64,000 nucleotides of DNA from a virus: the IMG/VR virus record IMGVR_UViG_3300029448_004877, positions 1 through 64,000 of that record; one strand, 5' to 3'. The translations under genes were made by a program, and so were the position numbers. Below the pieces are notes generated by a model that did not search any database, was not told where the DNA came from, and saw only the letters and a program-made list of their open reading frames with translations. Positions 17,638-58,982 of the stretch are shown here, piece after piece (within the stretch, counting starts at the first letter, position 1; the number at the start of each line of letters is the position of its first letter).

Positions 17638-17645
17638 TATTTATT
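17638..17645 (-). promoter_or_regulatory. Probable late promoter (7/8 match)
   Basis: AATAAATA on the minus strand, 34 bases before the repeat-protein gene and overlapping the stop of the upstream gene. One mismatch from the consensus. Confidence 0.5.
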
Positions 17646-18636
17646 GTACGTAAGTATTCAATTCGTACTTTGCGCCCATGTTGTATACTTGAATCTGAAG
17701 CATTTGACGAACGGGCTTGCCATTTTTCATCAACTTAATTGAGTATGAATTGGTCTTATCTTTGCTAGGCTTTCTGGGGCCAGTAGCAACTTTATCATGC
17801 CAATCATCTTCATTAATATCAAATCCTTTTTTCTTAGCAACTGCGATTGCTTCTTGCACTGCACCGCTAAAAGTGTTATGGTATAGTTTGTAATTAGGCG
17901 CTTCTTGAAGGTCTTGTTGAACTTCTTCGTTAACGGCCTCATCGTTGATTTCAGGCTCAAATAAGTGCAGTTGCTTCTGCAAGAGCAACGACCTCTCTTC
18001 AGCTTCATTGAGTTGCTTTTTCAGCTTATCAATTTTTCTCTGAATAGCAACTTTTTTCATCTTAACAGAAGATGTGTTGCCAAAGAAAGTCTTAAGATAT
18101 TTCTCAGCTTGATCAATCTGCTTTTGAATCTTAGCTTTGTCTACGCCCTCATCAAGTTCAACTTCTTCACGCATAGTCTTCAGAGCATGTACCATATCTT
18201 TATATGATTTGCCCATTGCAGTTTGAAGCTTCTCTTTAGCATCTGGCTTACGAAAAGAAGCAAACTTCTTCAACGCAAGTTCAATAACCTTTGGAGGCAA
18301 CTTAGCTTTCTTACCGTCAGCAAATTGAATAGGCATATTGCCTTTAACGTCAGACGCTTTACGCAACTGCATGATGATATTCATCTTCGCACCAGCTTTA
18401 TCTTTGTCGGTAGCGACAAGATCAAAATCAGCAGGATCAAACTTCTCATTCACATCCTCGTTTTGACGCTTAAGTACCGCCCTAACTTGTGGATGATCTG
18501 ATAGACCTCTTGCTAATTTTTCGATAGTCTTTGTTGCACCGGTCATATTACCGCCAGCATAGCGTTTATCAGACGCAATACCAATCGCTTGCTTGATCTG
18601 CTTAGGACTAAATTTTTCGTTTAGTTCTTCAGTCAT
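17641..18636 (-). CDS. Predicted prohead-processed structural polyprotein, 331 residues
   Basis: Three T4 gp21-type cleavage motifs (L-x-E followed by A or G) are visible: L-D-E163/G, L-N-E211/A and L-Q-E245/A. Cutting would release a basic helical N-terminal part, a coiled-coil middle piece (K-I-D-K-L-K-K-Q-L) and an 86-residue C-terminal domain starting A-P-N-Y-K-L-Y. Gene order, one base after the 282-residue protein, puts it in the late cargo region. No enzymatic domain recognised. Confidence 0.75.
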   Translation of the reverse strand: MTEELNEKFSPKQIKQAIGIASDKRYAGGNMTGATKTIEKLARGLSDHPQVRAVLKRQNEDVNEKFDPADFDLVATDKDKAGAKMNIIMQLRKASDVKGNMPIQFADGKKAKLPPKVIELALKKFASFRKPDAKEKLQTAMGKSYKDMVHALKTMREEVELDEGVDKAKIQKQIDQAEKYLKTFFGNTSSVKMKKVAIQRKIDKLKKQLNEAEERSLLLQKQLHLFEPEINDEAVNEEVQQDLQEAPNYKLYHNTFSGAVQEAIAVAKKKGFDINEDDWHDKVATGPRKPSKDKTNSYSIKLMKNGKPVRQMLQIQVYNMGAKYELNTYVQ

Positions 18637-19485
18637 TTAGTCCTCCAAAGCTTTAGAGATTGCTTTACGGCGTCTGTGTAGATATTCATCTGATTCATCC
18701 TCATCGCCATCGTTATCGATATCTTTGTCTTTACGATCATCGAACTTTTTCTTGACTGCTTTAGGTTGAACTTTGTCCATGCCTTCACCGTCGTCTGACT
18801 TGTCGTTAGAGTTGTCTTCTTTCATATGATAGCCTTTGCCATCACAATGATCACATCCTTTGCCTTCACACTTAGGACATTCGACCTTGCCTTCTTCTAT
18901 ATCTACTACTTCTACAGTGCCACCGTCCTGAACAATTTCAAATTCTTCTCTGCGAGTACCGCAAGAACTTTCGTACATTGCGTTAATCATTTTTTCGGAC
19001 ATAGATTTCATTTCGCCGTACATAGCATGAAGTTGCTCTTTTTTGTCTCCACGAGATCCACACTTCATCTTGTGTTTCTCTGCCATACCACAAAGTCCTT
19101 CGTAAGACATCTTCTTCATTTCGGCATAAGTAGCATTGATCATCTGCTCTTTAGACATGTAGCCTTCTTTCATGCTAGGCTGTGAAGCGGCTTTTACAGC
19201 AGTTTCTACAGACTTGGCTGCCTTATCTTTCGATGAAATCATACCAATATTTGGAGTTACGTCTGCAACCTTAGGCGTCTTAGTATCGCCATCACCTGGA
19301 CCAGTCTTATCTGCTCCACGTGAAGCTTTTGCTTCTGTCACTTCTTCTGGTTGCGCTTCAACTTCTACTGCTGGCTCTTCGGCAACAGTTTCAGCCATTT
19401 TATATCCCTGGGAAGATATTTTTGCTGTGAACGCATCGACCATACCAGATGGTAATGGTTTAATGTCTTTAGCTTTTTTAAACAT
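18637..19485 (-). CDS. Predicted prohead-processed protein with zinc-finger motif
   Basis: 282 residues. Possible gp21 cleavage at V-T-E51/A and a good site at I-E-E198/G. Just after the second site lies a DnaJ-like zinc motif, C203-P-K-C206 and C211-D-H-C214. The C-terminus D-I-D-N-D-G-D-E-D then D-E-Y-L-H-R-R-R-K-A-I is a motif I recall from late proteins of marine T4-like phages. Low-complexity acidic and Met-rich stretches lie between. Probably a head-interior protein. Confidence 0.75.
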   Translation of the reverse strand: MFKKAKDIKPLPSGMVDAFTAKISSQGYKMAETVAEEPAVEVEAQPEEVTEAKASRGADKTGPGDGDTKTPKVADVTPNIGMISSKDKAAKSVETAVKAASQPSMKEGYMSKEQMINATYAEMKKMSYEGLCGMAEKHKMKCGSRGDKKEQLHAMYGEMKSMSEKMINAMYESSCGTRREEFEIVQDGGTVEVVDIEEGKVECPKCEGKGCDHCDGKGYHMKEDNSNDKSDDGEGMDKVQPKAVKKKFDDRKDKDIDNDGDEDESDEYLHRRRKAISKALED

Positions 19486-19513
19486 GGTGTTCTCCTTAAT
19501 TTGTTTATGTTAC

Positions 19514-19521
19514 TATTTATC
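19514..19521 (-). promoter_or_regulatory. Probable late promoter (7/8 match)
   Basis: GATAAATA on the minus strand, 29 bases before the 282-residue gene. One mismatch from consensus. Confidence 0.5.
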
Positions 19522-19879
19522 AGTTATCGACTCTTGAGCCTGCTCGCCATTGATAGCAAGACCAGTACTTTGCTTTCCATTTCGGGCCCGGATTATCACA
19601 TCCATGTCTTGCCCTAAAACTCTTTCTTCTCGCAGGATCGTCACGTTTGATTTCCATGTTAGGATCACCAAATTGAACTTTCACTACATTACCCTTTTCA
19701 TTTTTAACGTACACACCAAACTTTCTTTTAGAGTCTGTAGGCAGTCTAAAAGGATCGTTTAATGTAACCTTTCTTCCGTCATACTCAGCGGCTTCCAGTA
19801 CAAGATCAGAGTAAATATCACACTTCTCGCATACTGCGTCAATTGAGTCTTCGTTAAATCTCTTAAACTTTTTAATCAC
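19520..19879 (-). CDS. Conserved phage protein with capsid-targeting-like N-terminus
   Basis: From the preferred GTG start at 19879 it reads MIKKFKRFNEDSIDAV, like the N-terminal capsid-targeting peptides of T4 internal proteins. The C-terminal region with D-P-A-R-R-K-S-F-R-A-R-H-G-C-D-N-P-G-P and Y-W-S-C is strongly conserved in marine phages and may bind metal through Cys/His residues. An earlier ATG at 19891 is possible. Function unknown; head-packaged cargo is inferred. Confidence 0.72.
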   Translation of the reverse strand: MIKKFKRFNEDSIDAVCEKCDIYSDLVLEAAEYDGRKVTLNDPFRLPTDSKRKFGVYVKNEKGNVVKVQFGDPNMEIKRDDPARRKSFRARHGCDNPGPKWKAKYWSCYQWRAGSRVDN

Positions 19880-20094
19880 TGTGCGTCCCAATACGTCTTG
19901 TCTAATTCGCCTGTTGCTGGTGGGCTACTAGTTTTTCTACACTTAATATAAGTCTGTCTAGCATTGCCTCCAGGCAGGGTAAACGTTCTAACTCCATTGC
20001 TAATCGTACCAGGAGTATTTGAGTATGTGTCAGATGCAGTAGCGGCATTGTCGTATTCCCACTGAGTGTTATTTGTAACTGTAACCCAAGCCAT
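19876..20094 (-). CDS. Small beta-rich late protein, 72 residues
   Basis: Starts MAWVTVTNNTQWEYDNAATA with a Thr/Asn-rich beta pattern and R-Q-T-Y-I-K-C-R-K. Similar short proteins are encoded in structural regions of marine T4-like phages. It touches its neighbours on both sides, so it is translated with them. Possibly a small virion component. Confidence 0.68.
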   Translation of the reverse strand: MAWVTVTNNTQWEYDNAATASDTYSNTPGTISNGVRTFTLPGGNARQTYIKCRKTSSPPATGELDKTYWDAQ

Positions 20095-20327
20095 TACTCT
20101 TCTCCGTCTTTATTCATCATATATCGATGAGCGGAGTTTAAGTAATCAGCAGCCTTAGTAATCTTGTTCTGCACCCACTCTGGAAGATTATCTTCATCAT
20201 CGAACATTTTAATCATATGCTCGGCATCTGCAAGAACGCCTCTGAGTTGCGTTTTAGCCATATTACCTTCATTATCATACTCGCCGGAATGTTTGTCTTC
20301 ATTAAATGTTTTAAAACTTTTTATCAT
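20094..20327 (-). CDS. Small late protein with capsid-targeting-like N-terminus
   Basis: 77 residues. Starts MIKSFKTFNEDKHSGEYDNE, with the M-x-K-S-F-K-x-F-x-E pattern shared by several proteins of this cluster. The rest is helical (Q-L-R-G-V-L-A-D-A-E-H-M-I-K-M). No enzymatic motif. Confidence 0.7.
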   Translation of the reverse strand: MIKSFKTFNEDKHSGEYDNEGNMAKTQLRGVLADAEHMIKMFDDEDNLPEWVQNKITKAADYLNSAHRYMMNKDGEE

Positions 20328-20331
20328 CTTA

Positions 20332-20775
20332 CTACGTTCCTTTTACGGTTCTTACTACTTTACTAATAATCATTTTGATTGCTGTAATATAAGCCCATCC
20401 ATATCCATTAATTACATGAAAGGTATGATTCTTTTCGATTGCAGATTTAGGTCCAAACTTCTTAGTCCAATTATCTACGTACTCGCCCTTATATCTTAAA
20501 ATCGCATGAGACACTTTCCATTTATTTGGTCCCACTAAACAGATACCAGCTTGATGCGTGATAAGCAACCACCACATCTTCAAGTGACTCTCACCAGAAA
20601 GTCTCCATAAAATCGAAAGGGCATAATCTTCACAGTCGCCTACAAATTTACCTTCATCGTTTTCAGAGTAGATAATTTTCCAAGCATCTGCCATGCCATA
20701 TTGATCTTTATCGTATCGGTATTTCCATTTTTTATTAAATGAAGATACAATCTTATCTCTTTCTTTCATATTCAT
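20332..20775 (-). CDS. Transglutaminase-like cysteine peptidase
   Basis: 147 residues. G-D-C48-E-D-Y gives the nucleophilic cysteine in the bacterial transglutaminase-like peptidase style. H90 in V-S-H-A-I-L and D101 or N102 in Y-V-D-N-W would complete the triad. No signal peptide. In a late operon next to the endolysin it could act on cell wall or on virion proteins. The reaction (hydrolysis or cross-linking) cannot be decided. Confidence 0.75.
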   Translation of the reverse strand: MNMKERDKIVSSFNKKWKYRYDKDQYGMADAWKIIYSENDEGKFVGDCEDYALSILWRLSGESHLKMWWLLITHQAGICLVGPNKWKVSHAILRYKGEYVDNWTKKFGPKSAIEKNHTFHVINGYGWAYITAIKMIISKVVRTVKGT

Positions 20776-20823
20776 TTCATTAGTCCTCGTATTATGTTTA
20801 ATGCTTTCCTACCATCTGGATGA

Positions 20824-21678
20824 TCATCCAAACATCTTTTTCAGAGTAGCTGGTCCAGCAACTCCGTCTGCTACTAATCCGTTTGACGCTTGCCACGCAC
20901 GTAATGCACGTTTTGTTCCTGGTCCAAATATGCCGTCTGCCCCGATATTAAGTGCCTTTTGTAATGCAACAACAGTATCTCCTCTATCTCCAGTTGTCAC
21001 TGTTACGTACTCAACTTTAGATTTCTTAGGAGTAGGAATCTTTCCACCCATAATTTCAATAGCGGCTTTATAACGTTTTGTTCTGTCCGCAAGTCCAATA
21101 TCACCACCATTAATCTTTTTAGTCATCTTAACAATGTCGCCTTTGTCTGCGATTGCGTTCAGTTTAAATGTCTTCCAGAACCAACAAGCACTTTCGATAG
21201 CACCTCTTTCTGTTGCCACATATTCTGCCGCTTCTTCTGCTGTCATTCCAACAGTCTTACCAAATTTAGTATAGTTTTCACGACCAGTAAGTTGCTTCAG
21301 GCCACGACCCCTAAAGAGCCATCCATCTCCTTCTTTGACATTGCCCATCTTATATTTACGAAACTCGTCCATATATACGTAGTTAGCAATCATCTCTGGA
21401 TTACGTGCATACTCTTTTGCGCTACGCTTCGGTGACTTACCAAAGTACCGTCCAAATACTCTAATCAATGCGCTTTCACTGTAATTCAAGTTCTCTTCAA
21501 GTGACTTGAAGTTATTACTTTCGTGGGCACATTGTGCAATAAATCCAGCCATTCTTTCAGGCGTGTTGATGTCGTACTTAGGAAAGATTTCTACAATCGC
21601 ATCGTACCACATATCGACTTTTGTGTTGCCAGGAATCATTGCGCCTAGCATCTCTTTTGTTAGTTGAAATTTACTCAT
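20824..21678 (-). CDS. Endolysin: GH19 lysozyme/chitinase plus peptidoglycan-binding domain
   Basis: 284 residues from the ATG at 21678, which overlaps the preceding stop (ATGA). The first about 210 residues are a GH19-type catalytic domain. A-H-E53-S carries the likely general acid, with a second acidic residue near 61, and F-R-G-R-G-L-K-Q-L-T-G-R-E-N-Y is the family's substrate-cleft motif. The last about 60 residues form a PG_binding_1 domain (V-V-A-L-Q-K-A-L then D-G-I-F-G-P-G-T). No signal peptide, so release through a holin or other route is needed; no holin was identified. Confidence 0.9.
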   Translation of the reverse strand: MSKFQLTKEMLGAMIPGNTKVDMWYDAIVEIFPKYDINTPERMAGFIAQCAHESNNFKSLEENLNYSESALIRVFGRYFGKSPKRSAKEYARNPEMIANYVYMDEFRKYKMGNVKEGDGWLFRGRGLKQLTGRENYTKFGKTVGMTAEEAAEYVATERGAIESACWFWKTFKLNAIADKGDIVKMTKKINGGDIGLADRTKRYKAAIEIMGGKIPTPKKSKVEYVTVTTGDRGDTVVALQKALNIGADGIFGPGTKRALRAWQASNGLVADGVAGPATLKKMFG

Positions 21679-22451
21679 TTTCCTTGCCTCTTTAACATTG
21701 TTACCTTTTTCTTCCAAGCTGGTTTGTCCATTTCTTTCTCTACATCTTGAACAGCATCCATAAATAAATGGAGCATTTTCATCTCATACTCTATACTTCC
21801 CCAATTCTCTCTTTTTGCCTGTTTGACCATCTTTTCTAAATATTCTACGACTTTTTCTTTTACTTGGTCATGTCTTAGTCTACCATAACCACGCAAAAGT
21901 ACTTCTGGATTGGTTGCATCATCAGAAGATTGTGGTTTGGTATCGTATATTTGTCCAGTAACAGCCTCTGTTAATTGTTTAAAACTTTTCATTTTTTTGA
22001 TCTCCCAAACATTTTCATTCCCTTCGTGTATCTTTTTTGTGAAAGTTTTTGGGTAAGTGTACACGTGTTTTAATAATTCTCTAACTTTCACATCCGCTTT
22101 CATGATGTCAATATCTAATCCAACGTTTTTAGCGGCTAACCATCTATGATGTCCATCTATGATATAGTTATCTTTACTCACAATTAGAGGTTTTGCTTGA
22201 CCAAGAGTTTTGATCTTAGCGATTGCGCCTACAACCTTATCTTTGTTAAACTCTTTCTGAATAGGCTTCAAACTCTTTGCAGGCACTTTTATTTTTTTAA
22301 TGCCCACATTATTTTTCTTCAAATGCTTAATCAGTCCATCGTAATCCTGCGATCTAACTTGCGGCATTTTATCTCTTGTAAATCCAAGAGTGTCGACCGA
22401 CTTAGGCTCATATACCTTAAACTCTGCGACAAAAGTTTTAAACTTCTTCAT
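21675..22451 (-). CDS. Two-module protein: capsid-targeting N-terminus, ParB-like domain, second targeting module
   Basis: 258 residues. Residues 1-12 (MKKFKTFVAEFK) resemble the T4 internal-protein targeting peptide. Residues about 64-112 form a ParB/sulfiredoxin-like domain with I-I-D-G-H-H-R-W-L-A (97-106). At residue 154 an internal ATG (21992) is preceded by GGGAG and starts MKSFKQLTEAVTG, another targeting peptide with an L-T-E/A cleavage site. The C-terminal 105 residues are helical. So a shorter second product from 21992 is likely, or this is a fusion of two cargo genes. Confidence 0.75.
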   Translation of the reverse strand: MKKFKTFVAEFKVYEPKSVDTLGFTRDKMPQVRSQDYDGLIKHLKKNNVGIKKIKVPAKSLKPIQKEFNKDKVVGAIAKIKTLGQAKPLIVSKDNYIIDGHHRWLAAKNVGLDIDIMKADVKVRELLKHVYTYPKTFTKKIHEGNENVWEIKKMKSFKQLTEAVTGQIYDTKPQSSDDATNPEVLLRGYGRLRHDQVKEKVVEYLEKMVKQAKRENWGSIEYEMKMLHLFMDAVQDVEKEMDKPAWKKKVTMLKRQGK

Positions 22452-25450
22452 ACCTTAATCACTTTGCTTGATGTACCGAAGTTCTTCTTACGCATGATAG
22501 TCTTGTTAACTACTTCGTACTCATCTTTTTCGCTGTCGTAGTTAATGACAATAGGCAAGTTCAAGTCTGCCTGAATGTCCTTAAGTACTGCTTCGATGTC
22601 AGGATTTTGACGAATATTCTTTGCTTTATTCTTCGCAATCTTTTTAAACACTCTCTGAAGTTCAGCAATTGTGATAGCAGGCTTGTTACGATCATCGTTC
22701 ATGCGATCAGCAAAGTGCTTAGTGAACTCTACATCGATGCCAAACTTGTCAAGCAATCTATCTGCAAATCTCTCAAGATCATTCAACTGCTTTTGTGTAA
22801 CTTCTTCGCTGAATTGCGCTTCGAATAGATCGTTTACTGACTCACTTACAGTTTCACCAGGAGTATCTTTCTTATAACGCTTAGTAACTTTTTCAGTGCC
22901 TCTGTCTCCTGCACCTCCAACTTCAATAACATACTTTTCGCCTAACATATTGTGTAGTACTTTATGGTCTACGTTATTGTAACTCTTGGCAATCTGTTGA
23001 GCATAGTAACCAGAGCCATGCCTCATGCCTCTACCGCCAGCTTCTTTCTTCTTACGAGTAATCAAATCTTTTAATGTTTTCAGTGCGTGTTGATATGCCT
23101 TTTTATTAACTGTAACAGACTTAACTTTGTTTACTACATATCCTTCTGATGCTTCTTTACTCTCTACGAACTCTTCGAACATATTATCGATGTCAACTTC
23201 TTCGTTTTTAGGCACACAGTTAGGGACTAGCCTACCGTTCTTCTTTTTCATGCCTCTTTGCTCATGAGAGTCCCAACAAGGATCATCATCTTTTTCTTTC
23301 AAAGATTTACCCTCGCTGTCGTATCCAGGCTTTCCAGCTTTTGCTTTCTTAGATATAGCGATTGCGGCACGTTGTGCGGCTGAACCTGCGCCTTCAGTCA
23401 TTCCCAAAATTCCACGAGTGAATTCATTCAGTTGACCACCAGCATCTACGAATGCGGCTATAGCCATTTGCTGTTTTTTCTTATCTGACTTACCTGCAAA
23501 CTGAGGAGCATCTGACTTCTTAAAGTCATCGATCCAAGCACCGAGTCCGTCAGATACTTTTAACTTCTCTTCTAATTCAACTTCTTCTTTTTTAGCACTG
23601 CCACGCACTTTAGCGGCTAAATCTGCGTCTGCCTTACCCCATGTGCCGGACGACTTAGTAATGAAAGAGTTAACACGTGCAAAGCCCCATTGTTGTGGAG
23701 TAGTTCCTGGTCTGTGACCAGTTCTCCAAGCGGCAATACCTCTATTATAGACTTGACGTAAAATGCCTAGTGGCATTCCAGACTTCTCTGCTTTCTTCTT
23801 GAGGCCCTCATTACCCTTTGCTTCATCAAGAGTTACTTGCTCGTAGATGTCGTTTGTAGTTTCTTCGATGAAATCGATAAGTGCTTTGTCTGTATCAAAC
23901 TCTTCTTTGTTGATACTTGTAATCTTCTTGCGTAATTCTCTGGTAAGTAGAGCGTCCATTTCACGCTCATGCTCTTTAGACAAATTCTGTCTTTCGTCTT
24001 TGTGTTGGCGCTTCAATCTTTTTTCGGCATCAGTGTTGATAGAGATTTCGTTTAATGCCTCTTCTTTGCGGACACGAAATGCACGAAAGCGGCGATCTAA
24101 TTTAATTTGACCTTCTTTATTAAACATTTGATGATAACGCTTAGTGTGCTTTGATGGCTTGGTCTCTGCTTCTGCATCACCCGGCGCTGGCTTGTACGCA
24201 TCTGGATTATCGTCATCCATTTTAGCGCCCTTTTTAAAGTGTGCATCACGCTTTGTTTTTGTAGACTTGGCTAGACCTTTATGATATACAGCTGGCTGTG
24301 TGCCTTTTCTATCCTTAATATCTGGATCTTGACCCACAGTAGGCTCTTCAAAAAGAGTAGAAAACTCATCATTAACTAAGAACGATTCAAACTCTTCGTT
24401 CACACTCTTTTTACCAGATAGTTTTGCTAAATCTGCTTTTCTAACTTTAGGCAATAACTTCTTTGCTATTCGGTCGATTGCGCCCTTCTTAGTAGAAACA
24501 CGTTTGTCGATAAGCATTTTTTCAGAAGGAGATAAGTTGTTATAGTTTTCGCCTTTCTTGCCTGCGACTTTCTTGCGAATAATTTTGATGGCAGCTTTTC
24601 TAGCACGTAACTTTAACTTATCCATAGTAGCGGCTTTTTTAGCCATACGTCTACGACCTTGAGCAATCTTTGACTTATACTTACGCATTGTGATTGATCT
24701 TTGGCGCCTTTGTTGCATCGTCAATGCTTCTTCAAGCTGTTCCATCATTTCGGCAATCTTCATGCCGCCACGTACCATGTCATACACATCTTGAGCATCA
24801 TTTTGAAGTCTTCGAGGCAAACCAGTTTTGAATTTTTTGAAGTCACCTTGAGAGGCTGCGGCTCTCATTTTAGAAGCAGACATGCCTTCTACTCCCTCTG
24901 AATCTGGGTCACGATCACCAGCAGATACAATAGAGATTTTATCAAAGTTATAGTCTTTACCGTTGTACTTGTTTAACAGATCATCGAACTGTTTAATTCT
25001 ATCCTGACCAACAACAAGAATTACCTTAGAGAATTTCTTCTGCAACTCTTGCATGATTTGGATGATAGTGCGGGCATTGGATTTTACGATGATATTACCG
25101 AATGCTTTCTTTGCAAGCATAATTTTATCATCGTAATCTAGAGGATTTTTCTTAGCGTCTTGACTGTGAGAAACGTAGATCAGCGGTGTTGCCGCTTCTG
25201 ATCTTGCAACAGATTTGATTTTGTTGACTAGCTTTTCGTGTCCAACAGTAATTGGATTCATTCTGCCCCAACCCAAAACTACTGTCTTATTTGGAGCTTC
25301 TTCAAGTTTGGGGTTGACCTCAATAGCGTTTTTCACTAAGAGTTCATCCTTTACTTTCTTCGAAGTCTTCTTTGACTTCTCTGTCTTCTTTTTAGAAGTC
25401 GTTTCTTCACCAGAGTTTGCCTCTGGATTTTCCATAGAATCGTCTTGCAT
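22448..25450 (-). CDS. 1000-residue late polyprotein with N-terminal nucleotidylyltransferase domain
   Basis: Residues about 55-225 are a cytidylyltransferase-fold domain: V-L-G-W-G-R-M-N-P then T-V-G-H (68-71), and M-S-A-S-K-M-R near 190-196. Next come a very basic stretch (about 245-345), a DUF5824-like region (M-P-L-G-I-L-R-Q-V-Y-N-R-G near 559-571, then P-Q-Q-W-G-F-A-R-V-N), a D-P-C-W...P-N-C-V-P-K motif near 723-748, and acidic linkers. Possible gp21 sites follow E51, E241, E543, E686 and E877. Preceded by a perfect late promoter. Most likely a head-interior polyprotein cut during maturation. Confidence 0.82.
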   Translation of the reverse strand: MQDDSMENPEANSGEETTSKKKTEKSKKTSKKVKDELLVKNAIEVNPKLEEAPNKTVVLGWGRMNPITVGHEKLVNKIKSVARSEAATPLIYVSHSQDAKKNPLDYDDKIMLAKKAFGNIIVKSNARTIIQIMQELQKKFSKVILVVGQDRIKQFDDLLNKYNGKDYNFDKISIVSAGDRDPDSEGVEGMSASKMRAAASQGDFKKFKTGLPRRLQNDAQDVYDMVRGGMKIAEMMEQLEEALTMQQRRQRSITMRKYKSKIAQGRRRMAKKAATMDKLKLRARKAAIKIIRKKVAGKKGENYNNLSPSEKMLIDKRVSTKKGAIDRIAKKLLPKVRKADLAKLSGKKSVNEEFESFLVNDEFSTLFEEPTVGQDPDIKDRKGTQPAVYHKGLAKSTKTKRDAHFKKGAKMDDDNPDAYKPAPGDAEAETKPSKHTKRYHQMFNKEGQIKLDRRFRAFRVRKEEALNEISINTDAEKRLKRQHKDERQNLSKEHEREMDALLTRELRKKITSINKEEFDTDKALIDFIEETTNDIYEQVTLDEAKGNEGLKKKAEKSGMPLGILRQVYNRGIAAWRTGHRPGTTPQQWGFARVNSFITKSSGTWGKADADLAAKVRGSAKKEEVELEEKLKVSDGLGAWIDDFKKSDAPQFAGKSDKKKQQMAIAAFVDAGGQLNEFTRGILGMTEGAGSAAQRAAIAISKKAKAGKPGYDSEGKSLKEKDDDPCWDSHEQRGMKKKNGRLVPNCVPKNEEVDIDNMFEEFVESKEASEGYVVNKVKSVTVNKKAYQHALKTLKDLITRKKKEAGGRGMRHGSGYYAQQIAKSYNNVDHKVLHNMLGEKYVIEVGGAGDRGTEKVTKRYKKDTPGETVSESVNDLFEAQFSEEVTQKQLNDLERFADRLLDKFGIDVEFTKHFADRMNDDRNKPAITIAELQRVFKKIAKNKAKNIRQNPDIEAVLKDIQADLNLPIVINYDSEKDEYEVVNKTIMRKKNFGTSSKVIKV

Positions 25451-25506
25451 TTTTCTTCCTCTATCGTAGGTTTACCGTAGTCTTACTACAATGATGTGTT
25501 ATATAC

Positions 25507-25514
25507 TATTTATA
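25507..25514 (-). promoter_or_regulatory. T4-type late promoter for the polyprotein operon
   Basis: Perfect TATAAATA on the minus strand, 57 bases before the polyprotein start and immediately after the preceding gene's stop. It probably drives the polyprotein, ParB-like, endolysin and downstream genes. Confidence 0.82.
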
Positions 25515-25516
25515 AA

Positions 25517-25996
25517 TTACAGTAGTTCCTTAGAACTGTTCCAAGTCTCTTCTGCTTTCACTAATGCTTCTTTAATTGATTCGAGTTGACTGAAGCTTTC
25601 GTTCTCTATGACTTCCATATCGATTCGTCTCTGTTTTGCTAATGTGTATTTTTCTTCTGCTTGACGGTGCTGTTCAGTTAAATTATGAAAACTACGTCTA
25701 GCTTCTCTTTCTTCCATAATAGCAATCATAGGATCCACTGGCTCTTCAGGAACAACTTGCACTTCAGGCGGCATTAATGGATGATCTTCGCCAGTTACAG
25801 GAAAGTCCTCTTCTTCGATTTCTGCATCTGTATATACTGGATCGCTTAATTCGTCTGAAAGTTCGATCTCAGCATTTTCAATGTGGTCATTAAGCTGATC
25901 AATTAGTACAGATTTGGTAAGCCTACGATCTAGTTCAATACCAACTGTGCGTCCATAAGCTTCTAGCTCATCTTTTGTCATATCAGTAAAATCCAT
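25517..25996 (-). CDS. SAP/HeH-like domain protein, 159 residues
   Basis: The N-terminal 40 residues (M-T-K-D-E-L-E-A-Y-G-R then L-D-R-R-L-T-K-S-V-L-I-D-Q-L) form a small helix-extended-helix (SAP/HeH-like) motif seen in phage structural proteins. An acidic Pro-rich linker and a long C-terminal coiled coil (about 85-155) follow. It is encoded in a late block. It may bind DNA or act as an assembly factor; no direct evidence. Confidence 0.75.
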   Translation of the reverse strand: MDFTDMTKDELEAYGRTVGIELDRRLTKSVLIDQLNDHIENAEIELSDELSDPVYTDAEIEEEDFPVTGEDHPLMPPEVQVVPEEPVDPMIAIMEEREARRSFHNLTEQHRQAEEKYTLAKQRRIDMEVIENESFSQLESIKEALVKAEETWNSSKELL

Positions 25997-25998
25997 AA

Positions 25999-26160
25999 TT
26001 AATCCTCCGACTTAACTAGCGTGAATATACCGTAAGCAATAGCACCGTAAGCAGCCCAGCCAATCAAACCTTGAAACATAAGTGCAATCACACCAACTGC
26101 AATAAGAGCACCGCCATCCCAAGATGTACGCTCTTTTAATCTACTCTTTAACCAATTCAT
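25999..26160 (-). CDS. Small membrane protein, 53 residues
   Basis: Starts MNWLKSRLKERTSWDGGALI and then has two hydrophobic segments around G-L-I-G-W-A-A-Y-G-A-I-A-Y-G. This is a small membrane protein I recognise as widely conserved in marine phages. Function unknown; a holin-like role is conceivable given the late endolysin but unsupported. AAAGGAG precedes the start. Confidence 0.75.
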   Translation of the reverse strand: MNWLKSRLKERTSWDGGALIAVGVIALMFQGLIGWAAYGAIAYGIFTLVKSED

Positions 26161-26177
26161 AATTTTCTCCTTTATTT

Positions 26178-26207
26178 AAAATGCAAAAGCAGGCACAAAG
26201 CCTGCTT
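26178..26207 (-). terminator. Intrinsic terminator
   Basis: Minus-strand hairpin AAGCAGGC/GCCTGCTT with loop TTTGT followed by TTTGCATTTT. It lies after the DUF1127 gene pair. Confidence 0.75.
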
Positions 26208-26245
26208 CTTAGACTTCTATAGTCTATTTAGCATTTTAAATTACC

Positions 26246-26425
26246 TTAGTCATTTTTGGCAATATCTCTGAGAAGCATCATACACTGCTTCGACTCCTCG
26301 TGTAAACCCATTCTTGCGAGTGCCGCCGCTGCCCGTGAATATCCCACTATCTGCGAATACCGATCTAGTGAAGACCACAACCCCGATAAGGGTAAAAATA
26401 CATAGTTGTTTACTAAGGCTGTCAT
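26246..26425 (-). CDS. Small protein coupled to the DUF1127 protein, 59 residues
   Basis: Starts MTALVNNYVFLPLSGLW, then has R-Y-S-Q-I-V-G-Y-S-R-A-A-A-A-L-A-R-M-G and ends R-D-I-A-K-N-D. The ATG overlaps the DUF1127 stop (TAATG). The Arg/Ala-rich central part looks like small bacterial proteins that accompany DUF1127 proteins. The alternative frame over the same DNA lacks such a pattern. Function unknown. Confidence 0.68.
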   Translation of the reverse strand: MTALVNNYVFLPLSGLWSSLDRYSQIVGYSRAAAALARMGLHEESKQCMMLLRDIAKND

Positions 26426-26649
26426 TAGACCCACCCCCGTAAATTTTCATTTGTCCCGTAGGCAATAGAATAAATTTCTCCACGACTGATACCCAAATCT
26501 TTTAGATCACGATCAGTAAGTTTACTTAGTTCTTTGATTGTTCTTTTGGCTTCTCTACGGTCAGACCATCGTTTCATTACGCTCATGTAAATATCTACGA
26601 TGAATGACAAGTTGAGAAAACCAGCGGCAGTAAGTACCATCTGTGTCAT
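26425..26649 (-). CDS. DUF1127-domain protein
   Basis: 74 residues. After a hydrophobic N-terminus (L-T-A-A-G-F-L-N-L-S-F) comes the DUF1127 core: R-R-E-A-K-R-T-I-K-E-L then L-T-D-R-D-L-K-D-L-G-I-S-R-G-E-I. In alphaproteobacteria, DUF1127 proteins are small Arg-rich factors, some linked to RNA or phosphate/carbon regulation. Finding one under a perfect late promoter suggests capture from such a host. What it does in the phage is unknown. Confidence 0.8.
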   Translation of the reverse strand: MTQMVLTAAGFLNLSFIVDIYMSVMKRWSDRREAKRTIKELSKLTDRDLKDLGISRGEIYSIAYGTNENLRGWV

Positions 26650-26699
26650 TCATTTTCTCCTGTATATAATGTGTGAAGTTAGCGGTTTGCTAACACATA

Positions 26700-26707
26700 T
26701 ATTTATA
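26700..26707 (-). promoter_or_regulatory. T4-type late promoter with 5' hairpin leader
   Basis: Perfect TATAAATA on the minus strand, 51 bases before the DUF1127 gene. The leader begins with hairpin GTTAGC/GCTAAC, which may protect the mRNA 5' end. Confidence 0.8.
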
Positions 26708-26764
26708 CGAGAAAGGTCAATATTACTGATGCATAATTCATATACCCGTGATGCGGTAAATGAC

Positions 26765-27994
26765 TTACTTCTGCCAGCCTTTAATAAATTCGTCTGAGAA
26801 GTTTGCTTTTGAGAAGCCTAGTCTATCTACTAGCTTGACAGCATTCTTACCCATTCTATCGATTGCGACAAAGCCTTCTTGCTCTGTAACTTTATAACCA
26901 TCTCTTGTTTTTAAGAAAGTGCCTATAGACTTTGCTTTATCTAGCTTACTGATGATACGTAATTTTATTTCAACGATCATGTTATACAGTTCAAATAATG
27001 CGACAATCTGAGACTTGTCGATGTTTGAAAAATATGCCATCACTTCTTTTCGTCTTTCTGTTCTACCGGCTTTGCCCTTTTCAGATTTCAGCTTATCAAT
27101 TTCTTTTTGGTAGTACTCGTAAATCCAGTCTACCATATCAGTGACGAATTTAGACGGATCTGCAATCTTTTCACCTGCCCGTACTTTTACGTTCAGATAT
27201 GTTTTGACTCTTGTGAGTAGTTCTTCGTTTTCTGTTATACCATCAAATGTTGCTTTGTTTACTTTGTTGAATTGTTTACCGGCGGCTGACAATAACAGAG
27301 TAACTGCATCTGTTTCTGTTTGCGTCATTGTAGCATTACCAGTTACATCTTTATATACAGCATCTACTGACCAGACCGATCTTGAGTCTTTGAGATTGCT
27401 TGCAATCTTCTCTCCAAAAGACGCTGACATTGATTCAAAAGATTTTCCTCTGTAGTTAGTGTGCCAAACCACACCGATCTCGGATCTGAGGATTTTAGAA
27501 GCAAGCGGGCTTTTCGCTGGTATAGCGTAAACAATCGTATTAGGATGAAAAGTAATATACGATTCACCATCAATCTGTGCCTTCTTAATATCTTTCTTCG
27601 CATAGAGAAAATCACCTTGTATCACTCCTTTAATATTCATAGATGGCAAATGTTTCAATGCCAAATTCATTTTTATATTCAAATCACCTTTAGTATCAGC
27701 ATCAACGTCCGCCTTAGTCTTGTAGACCTTTGGGTTCTTGTTGAAGATACCTTTCTTCGCAACGAAAAACTTACCGTCTGAGGGATCAATGCCTGCAAAT
27801 ACTGCTGGTGCACCGTCCCACTTGACAGTTACATTGACTGCTGACTTAGATTTACCAGCTAACATGTCACGTAAAGAACGTAAATAGTTGATTGATTCTC
27901 TTGCACCGTCAACGCCTGCATTCAGGATATTGTCTTCTAGGTGTTCCATGTGTGTGTTTTTGTCTTCAGTCAAAAATGATGAAAGGCGTTGCAT
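26765..27994 (-). CDS. DUF6267-like protein with ligase/nucleotidyltransferase-like motifs, likely head cargo
   Basis: 409 residues from the ATG at 27994 (GGAG six bases upstream). N-terminus MQRLSSFLTEDK resembles a capsid-targeting peptide with a T-E cleavage point. K58-W-D60-G61 matches the K-x-D-G nucleotide-attachment motif of ATP-dependent ligases. G-V-I-Q-G-D-F-L-Y could be motif III, E373-G-F-V-A motif IV and K387-L-V motif V. The distance between motifs I and IV (about 315) is larger than in known ligases and includes a helical insertion. So the fold assignment is an inference; the gene itself is certain. I recall this family as DUF6267 in marine phages. Confidence 0.75.
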   Translation of the reverse strand: MQRLSSFLTEDKNTHMEHLEDNILNAGVDGARESINYLRSLRDMLAGKSKSAVNVTVKWDGAPAVFAGIDPSDGKFFVAKKGIFNKNPKVYKTKADVDADTKGDLNIKMNLALKHLPSMNIKGVIQGDFLYAKKDIKKAQIDGESYITFHPNTIVYAIPAKSPLASKILRSEIGVVWHTNYRGKSFESMSASFGEKIASNLKDSRSVWSVDAVYKDVTGNATMTQTETDAVTLLLSAAGKQFNKVNKATFDGITENEELLTRVKTYLNVKVRAGEKIADPSKFVTDMVDWIYEYYQKEIDKLKSEKGKAGRTERRKEVMAYFSNIDKSQIVALFELYNMIVEIKLRIISKLDKAKSIGTFLKTRDGYKVTEQEGFVAIDRMGKNAVKLVDRLGFSKANFSDEFIKGWQK

Positions 27995-27995
27995 C

Positions 27996-28799
27996 TTATG
28001 CTCCAAATAATTTCTTTACATCTTCAGGATTATCAAGGCTGTACTTAGACTTAACGTCAGTCTTCAATCTACCTTGACAACGATATCCAGCACCGACAAC
28101 ACGATAGTCTTCGCCATTAATTTTTCTTGCTTTACTTCCAGATGGTCCTAATCTAAATTCGATATTAACAGATCCTTTATATTCTGGAACATCTAGCTTT
28201 AATGGATTACTTCCCAGATAAAAGAGACCTGCTTTACCTATCTGAATGTAATACACATTCTTTCGGTTATATGCTTTGGCAATTGTTCTTGCCGAGTCGA
28301 AAGATTGAATTGCGTTCATCTTACCAAGATAGCCAGCTTTCTGTGCCGCTGACCACGCTTCTTTAGTGACTGAACCGAAAGGAATTGTGTATGGTGTTTT
28401 TTTGTGGAATGCTACTGGCTCTTGCTTACGAATAAAGTTGACCCATTCTTTAAGTGCTTTATCTTGCTTTTTTGCCGCTTCTATAAAAAATGGAATGGCG
28501 TCATCGTCTACCGCATCCGGTTTGACTAAAGTGTGGGTCTTATTTAATGTGTCTATTCGTATAGACGTACCGCCCATTTGAGCATTCTTGTCTAGTTTGA
28601 TTTCGATATTGAATTCTTTACCGTTGTATAATGCTTCAATATCCCCTGCGCCTTGATTGCTGTATCCTGCACCTGGTTTACTGCCGACATCTAATCCTTG
28701 CACACCAGCAGATTTCATTGCATCGAAAACTTTCTTTTCGTATGCTAGTCCTTTTGCACCGACTGATTCGGTAATGAAACTTTTAAATCTGACTGTCAT
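27996..28799 (-). CDS. PD-(D/E)XK nuclease-like protein, likely head cargo
   Basis: 267 residues. N-terminus M-T-V-R-F-K-S-F-I-T-E-S resembles the T4 internal-protein targeting peptide, with cleavage after Glu11. Then Y-E21-K-K-V-F-D-A-M, G-D53-I-E and E66-I-K68 appear in the order and spacing of the PD-(D/E)XK core (acidic helix, D, E-x-K), with supporting G-A-G and K-N-A-Q-M-G-G. A C-terminal beta-rich part follows. If packaged, it could cut host DNA on entry or help initial genome processing. It is adjacent to the ligase-like gene and overlaps the next gene by four bases. Confidence 0.75.
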   Translation of the reverse strand: MTVRFKSFITESVGAKGLAYEKKVFDAMKSAGVQGLDVGSKPGAGYSNQGAGDIEALYNGKEFNIEIKLDKNAQMGGTSIRIDTLNKTHTLVKPDAVDDDAIPFFIEAAKKQDKALKEWVNFIRKQEPVAFHKKTPYTIPFGSVTKEAWSAAQKAGYLGKMNAIQSFDSARTIAKAYNRKNVYYIQIGKAGLFYLGSNPLKLDVPEYKGSVNIEFRLGPSGSKARKINGEDYRVVGAGYRCQGRLKTDVKSKYSLDNPEDVKKLFGA

Positions 28800-29851
28800 T
28801 TTTTAACCTTAAATTTCGTATCGTTTGGATATTCACCAGCTTTAGAATTTCTTAACTCAATTACATAATCTTCAACAGTGTTACTGCATAATATCGTAAT
28901 CTGCTTAGATTTTGAAGATGGATATCTTATATCATCAATTTTTATATTTTGAGATAACTTATCCAACTTTGTCTTACCTAACCAGAAGACCTTCCACCCA
29001 GTTCGCATTCGCCTTACATAAAAGTAGTTCATACCCCATGCCCTATTGAAAATCTTTTCGATTTCTCTTGCGTTGGCTCTCGGTACTGCGAGTTTCGGTC
29101 TAACTTTATTTATATTACCTCGTTCATCAAAGCCAGCTTGCACCTTGTTTAGATCAACTCCGAACGTTTTTAAGAAGGTTGCACCGGCTGAATTGGGCTG
29201 TAAGTTGCCTTCTCTATCAAACAAAGAAGCGGCACCTGAGTATGAACTGAAAGTATTACCGTTGATATCTTTAAGTGATATGTACCATTCACCACCTTGA
29301 TTATCTGTTAAGATAATATCTCCGATAATAGCACCTAATTTATCAATTGGCACTCCCTCTTTCTTTGTGCTACCAGTACGTTGAACTGCACCGACAATCT
29401 CTGCGTTAGCGAAGGGAGCATATGACTCGCTCATCATATTTACAACTTCAGAAGTTTCATTGTCTGTGCGAGTTTTGAAATACGTATCAAGCGTTTTGAC
29501 TGTTCTTACCTCAAACTTCTCGCCAGCATTCGCACCTCTTGCGATGATGATATCGAACTTAAGACCGCTAAATGTAAAACTGTAACTAGGAAACTTAGAA
29601 CTATTTGGAGAAATAGAGTTGAAGGTCACGCTTTCTAAACTAGTGTCCTTACGCAACTGCATTTTGAGATGATCTATTACAGCTTGGCTTGTATCGTCAT
29701 TTTTGTTGATAAGTTGTAGCCTAAACTCACGAACAGACTTATCGTTTGTTCCTGGCTTACCTTTTGGATACAAAGGAGCGACCCGATAATTCTTTATCTT
29801 TACGATAGAGTTCAGGTTTTCTCCGATCTTCTCATATACTTCCATACTCAT
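28796..29851 (-). CDS. Late protein of unknown function with possible nuclease-like motif, 351 residues
   Basis: No family recognised with certainty. Around 177-205 the pattern G-D-I-I-L-T-D then E-W-Y-I-S-L-K-D and S-S-Y-S-G resembles the D...x-L-K core of some restriction-type nucleases. The rest is mixed alpha/beta. It has no targeting-like N-terminus (starts MSMEVYEKIGENLNSIV). It overlaps the PD-(D/E)XK-like gene and has a probable late promoter, so the two are likely co-expressed. Confidence 0.7.
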   Translation of the reverse strand: MSMEVYEKIGENLNSIVKIKNYRVAPLYPKGKPGTNDKSVREFRLQLINKNDDTSQAVIDHLKMQLRKDTSLESVTFNSISPNSSKFPSYSFTFSGLKFDIIIARGANAGEKFEVRTVKTLDTYFKTRTDNETSEVVNMMSESYAPFANAEIVGAVQRTGSTKKEGVPIDKLGAIIGDIILTDNQGGEWYISLKDINGNTFSSYSGAASLFDREGNLQPNSAGATFLKTFGVDLNKVQAGFDERGNINKVRPKLAVPRANAREIEKIFNRAWGMNYFYVRRMRTGWKVFWLGKTKLDKLSQNIKIDDIRYPSSKSKQITILCSNTVEDYVIELRNSKAGEYPNDTKFKVKK

Positions 29852-31321: not shown

Positions 31322-31322
31322 G

Positions 31323-55992: not shown

Positions 55993-57258
55993 TTATAGCA
56001 AGTTAGTAACTGCGGTACGTCTGTAGTACACGTTGGTGTTGGCAGAAAGTGCGCCATTTCCAACAGTTGTACCTTGAGCGAATGGGTTAGAAACCATTCC
56101 GTAACGAGTCTTGAAGCCCAACTTCGACTGGAAGCTGTTCTCACCAACTGCACGAACCATCTGTAATGGCACATATGGGCAATAGAAAAGTCCGGCATCA
56201 AATGCGCTTGAACCTTTATAACCTACTACCATGTAGTTTGCACCAGCATATGGATCGATGTATACTCTGAAGCGACCGTTCAGAACACCAGCAAAGGTAT
56301 TGCCTGTGTCATCTGGGTTCAGATTGTTAGAGTTAAGAGCAGGTGCGTAATCAAGAACACCAGCCATTTGAAGTGCAGATGCAACATCAGATGAACAAAT
56401 GATCATGTTACCTTTTCCTCTACGAGTGTCTTTAGCGATTTGATTCGCTTCTTTCTCGATTTGGAACATCAAGCCTTTGAACTTCTCTACTGACCAACGG
56501 CCATTTGCGTCAACGTCTAGGTTGAATGTACCGTTAGAAGCAACTCCACCTTGAGAACCAGCAACAGCGTTTGAGTACACTGTACGGATTACTTCACGGT
56601 TGATTTCAGCAAGCAACTCAGCAGACAACATGTTTGCCAACTCAGTCTCAGCATCCAAACCATGGATAGCTTTAAGGTCTTGAGCAAGCTCAGTTGTGTA
56701 CTCTGCTTTCAATGCACGTGACTTTGCAGTTACAGATACTTTTTCGATTGAGAAAGACATCTGAGCAAACTCAGCCCCGGCACCATCGCCAAGTGCTTCT
56801 GCGTCAGCAGTAGCAAGGCCAGTACCAGTTGTTTCTGATCCTGCACCCAATGCGTTAGCATGAGTACCAGTACCAGAGTAATCGGTATCTGCTTCGCCGT
56901 AGAAGGCTTCTGGCTTACCAGACGTGTCTTCGTACTTAGAACGCATAGCGAAGATCAAGCCAGTTGGGCCAGTCATCGGCTGTACGCCTGCGATATCATA
57001 TGCAACCAAGTTAGGCATTGCACGGCGTACTAGAGAGATCAGTACGGGATCATAGTTCGCCACATCACCAGTTGCGTTAGCAGGTGCGGCTTCGTTCAGT
57101 AAAGATCCATTGCCAAGACTTTCGCCTTCACGCATGGAAGTTTCAGTGTTCTCCAAAAGAGTAGCTGTTACGGCCGCTCTGTGAGAATCTTGGATGCCGG
57201 GCAGAGCGCCATGCTCTAGAATCGGCTTCCACTTTTGCATTAGTTCTTCATTTCTCAT
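55993..57258 (-). CDS. 23: Major capsid protein (gp23)
   Basis: 421 residues. The N-terminal delta domain ends with a gp21 site L-L-N-E56/A57, so the mature form is about 365 residues. V-S-V-T-A-K-S-R-A-L-K-A-E-Y-T-T-E-L, N-M-L-S-A-E-L-L-A-E-I-N-R-E-V and C-terminal K-L-G-F-K-T-R-Y-G are the gp23 fingerprint. Forms the head lattice. Own late promoter and strong terminator. Confidence 0.97.
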   Translation of the reverse strand: MRNEELMQKWKPILEHGALPGIQDSHRAAVTATLLENTETSMREGESLGNGSLLNEAAPANATGDVANYDPVLISLVRRAMPNLVAYDIAGVQPMTGPTGLIFAMRSKYEDTSGKPEAFYGEADTDYSGTGTHANALGAGSETTGTGLATADAEALGDGAGAEFAQMSFSIEKVSVTAKSRALKAEYTTELAQDLKAIHGLDAETELANMLSAELLAEINREVIRTVYSNAVAGSQGGVASNGTFNLDVDANGRWSVEKFKGLMFQIEKEANQIAKDTRRGKGNMIICSSDVASALQMAGVLDYAPALNSNNLNPDDTGNTFAGVLNGRFRVYIDPYAGANYMVVGYKGSSAFDAGLFYCPYVPLQMVRAVGENSFQSKLGFKTRYGMVSNPFAQGTTVGNGALSANTNVYYRRTAVTNLL

Positions 57259-57305: not shown

Positions 57306-58238
57306 TTATTTTGCGGCAAAGCGGCCAAGCGATTCCGCATAACGAGCAACAGACGGATCAACGTATGTTACCTGCTCTGCTTCTTCCGCAGTCTCTTCTT
57401 GTAGAAGATCGGTTTCATCTTCTTGCACAGCAACAGGAGCTTGTTCGGCGAAGTAAGAAGTTTTAATGGCTTCTACTTTAGTCGTAAACTCTTCTACTGA
57501 TTCATAAGATACGCCTTCTGAGAGAACACGCAATTTTTCGACTTGAGTGTCTGTTAAGTCCTCAGAAATAGTTTTGAATGCGATGTCAAGGTCAGCCTTT
57601 TCTTTCGCTTCACGAACTTCAATCATTTGCTCAACGATGTCGTTGTACTTAGAAGTAGACTCTTCGAGTCTGCTTTCCAACTCAGCAACTACATCGACTT
57701 GCTCATCATCGATTTCCATGTTATGCTCAATAACAAGACCTTTGATACTTGTCAGTAGTGATTCAGCGACCTCAACTTTGATGTTGCTTTCGACTTCAAC
57801 CTTGTTGTCTTCCATCCAGCTTTCTACAACGTAGTCTAGATATTGGTCAACTTTTTCTACCAACTCCTCCACAGTAACATTAACTTGTTCCTGCAGATCA
57901 CTTTCAAACTTTTCTTCTAGTGAAGCTTTCTCAGCAATCACTTTTTCTTGTACAGCGGCTTCGAAGATTGCTACTGTTTGTGTTTTAAAATCTTCAGACA
58001 ATTCGGTGCCTTCAAATAGACGCTCGACTGCTTCTTTCAGTCCTTCGTCATTTGAGCCCTGTGGTGTTTTTACATCGTCTTCGATGTTATCTGCTTTCGG
58101 GTCGGCTGCCTTTTTAACATCGCCTTTGCGCTTTTTGACAGCGCCGCCAGCAGGTGTTACAGGATCAGCCGCAACAGAATCTTCACCAGTTGCTTTGGCT
58201 TCGTCCAAGTCTAGATTCTTTTCTAGTTCTTCACTCAT
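57306..58238 (-). CDS. 22: Prohead scaffold protein (gp22)
   Basis: 310 residues, highly acidic and helical (long coiled-coil stretches such as V-E-S-N-I-K-V-E-V-A-E-S-L-L). gp21-type cleavage sites L-D-E13/A and L-S-E/G are visible. It forms the core that shapes the prohead and is degraded on maturation. Position between gp21 and gp23 is as in T4. Confidence 0.9.
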   Translation of the reverse strand: MSEELEKNLDLDEAKATGEDSVAADPVTPAGGAVKKRKGDVKKAADPKADNIEDDVKTPQGSNDEGLKEAVERLFEGTELSEDFKTQTVAIFEAAVQEKVIAEKASLEEKFESDLQEQVNVTVEELVEKVDQYLDYVVESWMEDNKVEVESNIKVEVAESLLTSIKGLVIEHNMEIDDEQVDVVAELESRLEESTSKYNDIVEQMIEVREAKEKADLDIAFKTISEDLTDTQVEKLRVLSEGVSYESVEEFTTKVEAIKTSYFAEQAPVAVQEDETDLLQEETAEEAEQVTYVDPSVARYAESLGRFAAK

Positions 58239-58286: not shown

Positions 58287-58982
58287 TCATGTTTTTGACA
58301 ATGAACTTACAAATTTTTCGAAAAGAGCGGCAGCTTTGATCTCAAGTTCTCTTGTAGATACTCTTGCTGTCTCTTTAATCTCCTCTTCAATTTGATCAAA
58401 TGCATTTGCCATTGTCCACGAAGAAGATGCTACATCGTAAACCCAGTCTACGCCTTCCATTACACCCTTTACGAATGCGTCTGGCGCTGATGGGTCTGCA
58501 ACGATATCTCCGGCAGTAGCTAACATAAAGTCGCTCTGCACTTCCATAACGCCATCTTTATTCTGCTTAATTGAACCCATCCCACGTGAAGAAATCCCAA
58601 CAAGACCGCCTTCATCGATAAGATTTTTAACAATCTTACCCATAGGTGTTTCCATTATCTTGGCTCTACCGACAATGTTAGAACCTTCTTTTCTTAAATC
58701 TGTGAACATGTGAGACACACGATCAAGATTGATAGTAGGACCAGCAGGATGACCCAGTTCTCCGTATGCTCTATTTTTAGAAACATAAGATTCGTTATAA
58801 CGCTTAGTCTCAGCTTCTAAAATAGATGCTGGATATAAACGTCCATTTCTGTTTTTGATATCACCCTGCATGATGATACCTTCGATGAAATAGTTCTTTC
58901 CTGTTTTTTCGCCTTCTTCGTTTAGAATATCTTCTTGTAGATATTTTACGTCTTCAACGATTTCTTTAATTAGTAATGTCAT
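58287..58982 (-). CDS. 21: Prohead protease (gp21)
   Basis: 231 residues. H78 in G-E-L-G-H-P and S131 in V-G-I-S-S-R-G are the catalytic residues of this herpes-protease-like fold. G-R-L-Y-P is the conserved start of the family. It cleaves head proteins after L/I-x-E during maturation, a specificity matching sites seen in gp22, gp23, gp68 and the 17.6-25.5 kb proteins. Confidence 0.93.
   Translation of the reverse strand: MTLLIKEIVEDVKYLQEDILNEEGEKTGKNYFIEGIIMQGDIKNRNGRLYPASILEAETKRYNESYVSKNRAYGELGHPAGPTINLDRVSHMFTDLRKEGSNIVGRAKIMETPMGKIVKNLIDEGGLVGISSRGMGSIKQNKDGVMEVQSDFMLATAGDIVADPSAPDAFVKGVMEGVDWVYDVASSSWTMANAFDQIEEEIKETARVSTRELEIKAAALFEKFVSSLSKT

Follow-up and report, generated by a model that had tools for sequence, protein, structure and literature searches.

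The window analysed here, 64,000 nucleotides corresponding to positions 1 to 64,000 of IMG/VR record IMGVR_UViG_3300029448_004877, belongs to a 71.9-kb T4-like virus record. With the helicase gene gp41 on one side and the primase gene gp61 on the other, a block of genes at 17641-29851, all on the minus strand, very probably encodes head-packaged cargo proteins with a T4-type start peptide (the tag). Packaging is well supported, cleavage by the prohead core protease gp21 is predicted from the sequence, and by the precedent of T4 the cargo may be ejected into the host and act there as effectors. T4-type targeting and gp21 processing had been proposed in a sequence-only reading of the window and are now backed by motif statistics, by agreement with positions mapped in T4 IPIII, by the presence of gp21 in the window, and by virion proteomics of homologues and tagged proteins. 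That reading is now extended by a test against outside virion data, a test of a freely varying motif position (P3), the modular chains and the recognition that the 21992 peptide lies in a fusion.

Start peptides of the block proteins

Five proteins of the block had been said to begin with the tag (19879, 20327, 21992, 22451 and 28799), with a looser form at 27994. All of these peptides are present, as listed below from the sequence (an arrow marks a predicted cut).

28767..28799, minus strand: targeting peptide MTVRFKSFITE↓S, exact match with a canonical gp21 end
27965..27994, minus strand: targeting peptide MQRLSSFLTE, L in place of F at position 4
22422..22451, minus strand: targeting peptide MKKFKTFVAE, exact match
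21966..21992, minus strand: internal tag copy MKSFKQLTE↓A at a fusion joint, L for the second F
20298..20327, minus strand: tag variant MIKSFKTFNE, followed by D, F-x-x-F kept
19850..19879, minus strand: tag variant MIKKFKRFNE, followed by D, GTG start, F-x-x-F kept

Of the five proposed starts, those at 22451 and 28799 match exactly and the other three are variants, while the looser form at 27994 is as described, with L replacing the first F. The aromatic pair at residues 4 and 7 is likewise exact at 22451 and 28799 and variant at 27994, 21992, 19879 and 20327. Position 8, before x-E, is L at 27994, I at 28799 and V at 22451; at 19879 and 20327 it does not fit, the acidic residue is shifted, and the peptide ends without L/I-x-E. 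Homologues of the 27994 protein begin, for example, MKNFNNYLAE, MLRFKQYLSE or MRSFKTYLSE, and a homologue of the 20327 protein in locus L164 has MKSFVEHIAE↓A. The GTG-started 19879 gene and TTG-started extensions of open reading frames (ORFs) were read from the tagged start codon.

The peptide at 21992 does not open a gene of its own but lies in-frame within ORF 21675-22451. The second part of this fusion is a separate gene in locus L164 (9221-9541) with its own N-terminal peptide, MKSFVEHMSE, and in loci L159 and L160 a stop closes the ParB-like gene just before the fusion point. With gp68 set apart, the window holds five tagged N-termini and one internal copy. Several block proteins (28796, 20332 and the lysozyme at 20824) have no tag.

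Motif statistics and gp21 specificity

The sample comprised 231 sequences, namely the window and loci of related phages, with 3070 distinct ORFs complete at the 5' end. A strict motif, M.{0,3}[FY]K.[FY]..E, in which positions 4, 7 and 10 are conserved by search design, starts 159 of the 3070 ORFs (5.2%) as compared with 6 of 14582 internal ATG-encoded methionines (0.04%), a 126-fold difference. When protein bodies were clustered without their first residues, 35 families carried the strict motif and 60 a loose one. Most tagged bodies, among them 16 of the first 20 scanned, lacked a Pfam match; the bodies that were matched include a Zeta-toxin/AAA kinase, an HD hydrolase, NT5C, a HAD phosphatase, an adenylate kinase, a DPBB lytic transglycosylase, a glucosaminidase and a RimK ATP-grasp protein.

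The residue before x-E (P3) was left free in the search and is I or L in 138 of 163 cases (85%; background 13%) and in 29 of 35 families, a preference which matches the rule that gp21 cuts after L/I-x-E (PMC9026906). At every fixed residue (F, K and E) both synonymous codons occur, so selection acts on the peptide. A DNA pattern for MxxFKxFIxEA gave at least 81 matches over viral contigs; although the pattern imposed no ORF start, an in-frame stop was found at most 30 codons upstream in 77 of the 81 matches listed. A related pattern in 11 genomes gave 19 matches forward and none when reversed. Among 11 long contigs chosen solely by the tag DNA pattern, Pfam identified gp23 in nine and gp21 in seven, these records being fragments.

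Mutation of the T4 IPIII peptide has shown that residues 4 and 7 are needed for targeting and residues 8 and 10 for processing, and that D at position 10 permits targeting and prevents processing (PMC9026906). The conserved motif positions 4, 7, 8 and 10 coincide with these mutation-defined positions. The combined regular expression returned only IPII, IPIII and gp61.1 from the T4 genome; IPI (MKTFKEF..ITE↓A) escapes it and, as a result, the real signal must be broader than the expression. The 54-aa hypothetical protein gp61.1 (AF158101 18966-19130, locus L264) starts MKTFKEFIKE and adjoins gp61, in the same place as the block. From its sequence, it may be an unrecognised capsid-targeted protein.

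A gp21-type S77 prohead protease, as T4-type capsid-targeting sequence (CTS) cargo calls for, is encoded in the same genome along with other head genes.

58984..59442, minus strand: gp68-like core protein, start MKSFKEMLAE, assigned by position, no Pfam match
58287..58982, minus strand: gp21 prohead core protease (Peptidase_S77, Pfam PF03420, E=5.4e-36)
57306..58238, minus strand: gp22 scaffold (Pfam T4_CASP, E=1e-60)
55993..57258, minus strand: gp23 major capsid protein (Pfam PF07068, E=3e-144)

The gp21 protein is the predicted cutter of both tags and linkers, and the gp22 scaffold is the expected docking partner of the tags. A predicted maturation site in gp23, LLNE↓A after residue 56, serves as an internal reference for gp21 specificity. 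The gp23 sequence is 68% identical to those of Sinorhizobium phage phiM12 and Methylophilales phage Melnitz.

Tagged proteins in the virions of relatives

Published virion proteomics of four cyanophages provide an outside test. A cytidylyltransferase was detected in virions of S-SM1 (PMC3037559) and of S-SZBM1, S-SCSM1 and S-CREM2. The N-termini of the detected proteins are MKKFSAFLNE↓A, MRFRQFIIE↓A, MKSFLQFLKE↓A and MKNFSSFLTE↓A; all four are tagged and continue with A.

The S-CREM2 virion list holds 52 proteins (PMC10665884, Table 3). With a relaxed motif, M.{1,3}[FY]..[FY]..E, four ORFs were selected: a SAM hydrolase, an APH/ChoK-like kinase, the cytidylyltransferase and ORF136. All four were virion-detected, giving 4 of 50 detected and 0 of 166 undetected ORFs (Fisher p=0.003), and they include enzymes that the authors could not place. 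With four ORFs in the sample, the test is supportive and is no proof. Further detected neighbours look like variants of the tag, namely ORF13 (MKDLHSFLTE) and the Cas9-annotated ORF12 (LRFASFMAE↓A near the start). At 7704-13331 of S-CREM2 (locus L234), a minus-strand cluster of a Cas9-annotated nuclease, a kinase and two small proteins has tag-like starts throughout, and all of its products were virion-detected. In S-SCSM1, five adjacent genes (89-93) are each labelled as a virion protein.

Multi-module chains

One cargo protein of the block is a chain of 1000 residues with the modules CTP_transf/NMNAT-like, R/K-rich, QDPDI, DUF5824, KKQQ, PCWD and phrog_14518.

22448..25450, minus strand: 1000-aa multi-module cargo chain, a propeptide and at least seven modules (Pfam, PHROG and module search)
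25298..25450, minus strand: long propeptide of 51 residues that ends NPKLEE↓A, adjoins the CTP_transf core and replaces the short tag
24731..25297, minus strand: CTP_transf/NMNAT-like module, GRMNPITVGH (Pfam E=2.9e-5, over the cut-off; phrog_3041, E=5e-100)
24416..24727, minus strand: R/K-rich helical module, QLEE↓A before it
23531..23821, minus strand: DUF5824 module, TLDE↓A before it (Pfam E=5e-16)
22451..22819, minus strand: phrog_14518 module, LFE↓A before it (PHROG)

Predicted cuts at residues 51, 241, 543 and 877 of this chain coincide with module starts. The sequence-only reading had also pointed to internal L-x-E sites in neighbouring proteins, and these are indeed present, with 20 L-x-E↓A/G/S sites in the block. 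Their density is 5.6 per 1000 aa as compared with 3.6 elsewhere (p=0.013 against shuffles) and 19 in gp22/67/68. Since raw density is only moderately raised and was set aside as weak evidence, the position of the sites was tested instead. An LxE↓[AGS] site lies at -15 to -1 of the phrog_7595 core in 98 of 109 contexts (0.90 vs a background of 0.014), before the LYHNT core in 20 of 30 (0.67 vs 0.15), and before the R/K core at 0.35 vs 0.03; the frequency is also clearly raised before the CTP_transf, DUF6267 and DUF5824 cores. When only internal positions are counted, the site precedes phrog_7595 in 12 of 14 cases, R/K in 17 of 36, MTGATK in 13 of 17 and LYHNT in 17 of 26. DUF5824 and phrog_14518 show the internal signal likewise, and CTP_transf had two internal cases.

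The modules also occur outside such chains. In phage C48C1, which has a related block with shared modules, the R/K module (15254, MLSFKQFVSE) and DUF5824 (17028, MITFKKYLEE) are stand-alone tagged genes. Pelagibacter phage HTVC008M has a related block sharing modules downstream of UvsX and primase-helicase. Among complete ORFs, 64 module architectures were counted. In 12 sequences the place of the short tag before the CTP_transf core is taken by a second type of propeptide, I.[LIVN].P.[LIY].[ED]. The phiM12 homologue of the chain, SmphiM12_458 (locus L266, 1751-3559), has a degenerate HxGH motif (LNPATVEH); its sequence suggests that catalysis was lost and the chain kept, a warning that some modules may act structurally.

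Proposed mechanism

The ten-residue start peptide, M-x-x-[F/Y]-x-x-[F/Y]-[I/L]-x-E, would dock a protein on the prohead core in the manner of the T4 CTS. Cleavage by gp21 after [I/L]-x-E would then release the cargo, which would remain in the head during DNA packaging and most likely pass into the host along with the DNA. In the fused chains, a single N-terminal propeptide would carry several modules and gp21 would cut at L-x-E↓A/G/S sites at the module borders, possibly releasing the individual modules. Tentatively, then, marine T4-like phages may deliver a polyprotein from the head, a chain that may reach seven or more modules and is cut by gp21 in the capsid and ejected with the DNA, its modules being exchanged between tagged genes and chains.

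If the proposal is true, searches keyed on the tag would turn many anonymous genes of ocean viruses into predicted injected proteins. The tag predicts virion location from sequence alone for many genes of unknown function, including those of ADK-, RimK-, HD- and kinase-like proteins. For the cytidylyltransferase/NMNAT protein, which recurs in marine cyanomyovirus virions and which authors could not say whether it belonged there, the tag offers both a mechanism and a test. The ocean is rich in T4-like phages, and the broad question of which proteins they inject in the first moment of infection is thereby made directly checkable.

Evidence against and alternative explanations

Several results weigh against the reading of the block as head-packaged, gp21-processed cargo. 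The virion data all come from other phages, the four cyanophages, and the S-CREM2 and S-SCSM1 authors note that co-purification is not excluded. The motif with K at position 5, as first read, has no match in S-CREM2, and the expression used there was relaxed after the loci had shown K to be variable. The tagged proteins SSZBM1_191 and SSCSM1_30 (about 106 aa) are absent from both virion lists. DUF6267 of S-SZBM1 is untagged and undetected in virions, and thus not every homologue of a block protein is cargo everywhere. In a tag-bearing contig of 142 kb (G005), Pfam identified no gp21 and no gp23. At the predicted cuts, the P1' residue is frequently E, K, D or Q, and two tags of the window (19879 and 20327) have no canonical gp21 site. 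The PCWD, DKDIDND, KKQQ and YDNEG modules show no significant LxE signal at internal module starts. For the 1000-aa chain, AlphaFold gave a poor model (pLDDT 63, pTM 0.29), and the placement of sites in loops is uninformative since 55% of residues qualify. As a separate observation, SSZBM1_191 (locus L263, 812-1129) and SSCSM1_30 (locus L268, 1216-1536, near terL) are one conserved tagged protein.

Four other explanations were considered. It is rather unlikely, though worth keeping in view, that the tagged proteins, once packaged, belong to the core or inner body or condense DNA within the head, and are not host-directed effectors. The R/K-rich module is very basic and common to many chains, the phiM12 cytidyltransferase homologue retains the chain without HxGH, and the cytidylyltransferase is among the cyanophage core genes (PMC3037559). 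The bodies, however, are highly diverse and enzyme-like (adenylate kinase, RimK ATP-grasp, Zeta-toxin-type kinase, HD hydrolase, NT5C, glucosaminidase and SAM hydrolase), which fits a common structural role poorly, and in T4 the internal proteins (IPs) and Alt, which bear the same tag, undergo ejection (PMC9026906). A peptide that targets proteins to the prohead and is left uncleaved in many copies, so that virions hold propeptides and chains in uncut form, would account for the frequent E, K, D or Q at P1', for the peptide ends at 19879 and 20327, and for the T4 precedent of D at position 10, which targets and blocks processing. This is improbable: unless cleavage is under selection, it is difficult to account for I or L at P3 in 85% of cases and for the precise position of LxE in front of several modules.

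A reading in which abundant late proteins co-purified with the virions and the peptide has some other use, for example as an intracellular docking helix, appears very unlikely. The caveat was raised by the S-CREM2 and S-SCSM1 authors themselves; however, all four tagged S-CREM2 ORFs were detected, no undetected ORF was tagged, and at its functional positions the peptide is identical to the signal that experiments have defined in T4. A short stretch shared by the 5' ends of many genes might also be a recombination or translation-initiation footprint, or a product of chance. Because codons vary at F, K and E, a footprint is contradicted; conservation also falls on spaced amino-acid positions, the tag is 126-fold enriched over internal methionines, and the reversed pattern gave 0 matches vs 19. 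This origin is so improbable that it was rejected.

Comparison with known systems

The closest parallel to head-packaged, tagged cargo is T4, in which IPI, IPII, IPIII and Alt likewise carry an N-terminal tag on unrelated bodies, with aromatic residues at 4 and 7, I/L at 8, E at 10 and an S77 protease; the IPI start, MKTFKEF, resembles the block tags. Those four proteins are the tagged set of T4, as compared with five tagged N-termini and one internal copy in the window. In contrast to T4, body families are far more numerous and for the most part consist of enzymes or unknown domains, chains unite several modules and have internal gp21-like sites, and the block sits between gp41 and gp61, with cyanophage core genes that are virion-detected. 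The sequence-only reading expected an ejected set far richer than that of T4; such a set is conceivable, and its richness would come mainly from the multi-module chains.

The cyanophages S-SM1, S-SZBM1, S-SCSM1 and S-CREM2 have the homologous cytidylyltransferase, and other tagged enzymes (SAM hydrolase, APH/ChoK-like kinase) occur in purified virions; the accessible parts of those papers leave contamination open and describe no targeting signal. In the giant phages phiKZ and SPN3US, a prohead protease resembling gp21 likewise processes many head proteins, including ejection and inner-body proteins, cutting behind short motifs with a terminal E, and the internal cargo is large (PMC9026906), although both are distant from the present T4-like gp23/gp21 lineage. 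The DarA and Hdf proteins of P1 are also head-associated and delivered, and protect phage DNA against restriction, according to PMC12810830; however, they belong to another head lineage and show no homology by anything tested. Beyond the T4 review, no earlier description linking a CTS to cyanophages was found in a literature coverage that was incomplete, mainly for subscription journals.

Other cargo proteins and neighbouring genes

The remaining cargo and cargo-like proteins of the block are as follows.

27996..28799, minus strand: 267-aa cargo protein, the nuclease of the earlier reading, unknown-function PHROG
26765..27994, minus strand: DUF6267 protein (Pfam E=1.4e-112) with ligase-like motifs KWDG, QGD, EGFVA and AVKL
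21675..22451, minus strand: ParB-like protein (phrog_8071, E=6.6e-10) fused in-frame to a second tagged module
20094..20327, minus strand: 77-aa YDNEG module protein, fused in other contigs too
19520..19879, minus strand: phrog_7595 module protein, VLE↓A with the cut near 19793 directly before the module
18637..19485, minus strand: cargo-like protein with VTE↓A and IEE↓G sites and a DKDIDND module
17641..18636, minus strand: cargo-like chain of MTGATK to LYHNT modules with LDE↓G, LNE↓A and LQE↓A

Three of these had been proposed to be nuclease-, ligase- and ParB-like. The first has the look of a PD-(D/E)XK nuclease by eye, but only an unknown-function PHROG and no Pfam match was obtained. The ligase-like character of the DUF6267 protein stands at the level of KxDG-type motifs, with KWDG, QGD, EG and K invariant across 27 homologues; in its structure model residues 1-15 are disordered, and a fold search against the PDB gave no match at E<=0.001, with ligases only among the weak hits. 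PDB sequence searches with DUF6267 and the CTP_transf module gave no useful match. The ParB-like assignment is carried by phrog_8071, while the Pfam match (E=0.0024) was below the cut-off.

In locus L285 (3736-4152), a tagged 138-aa protein with YHGTPESSADKIKKSGFK resembles ADP-ribosyltransferase folds by eye and has no Pfam match. An untagged HD_4 domain protein is encoded in the window at 5347-5862 and a tagged one in locus L015 (15203-15763), so this enzyme class is found both with and without the tag. A DUF1127 protein (26425-26649, Pfam E=9e-14) is also present in this phage genome. Two NifU/IscU-like scaffold genes and one Fe-S_biosyn (IscA-like) gene (30566-30988, 31001-31393 and 39732-40175) are parts of iron-sulphur assembly borne by the phage. 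A class 3 lipase is encoded on the opposite strand at 6255-7022 (Pfam E=5e-19).

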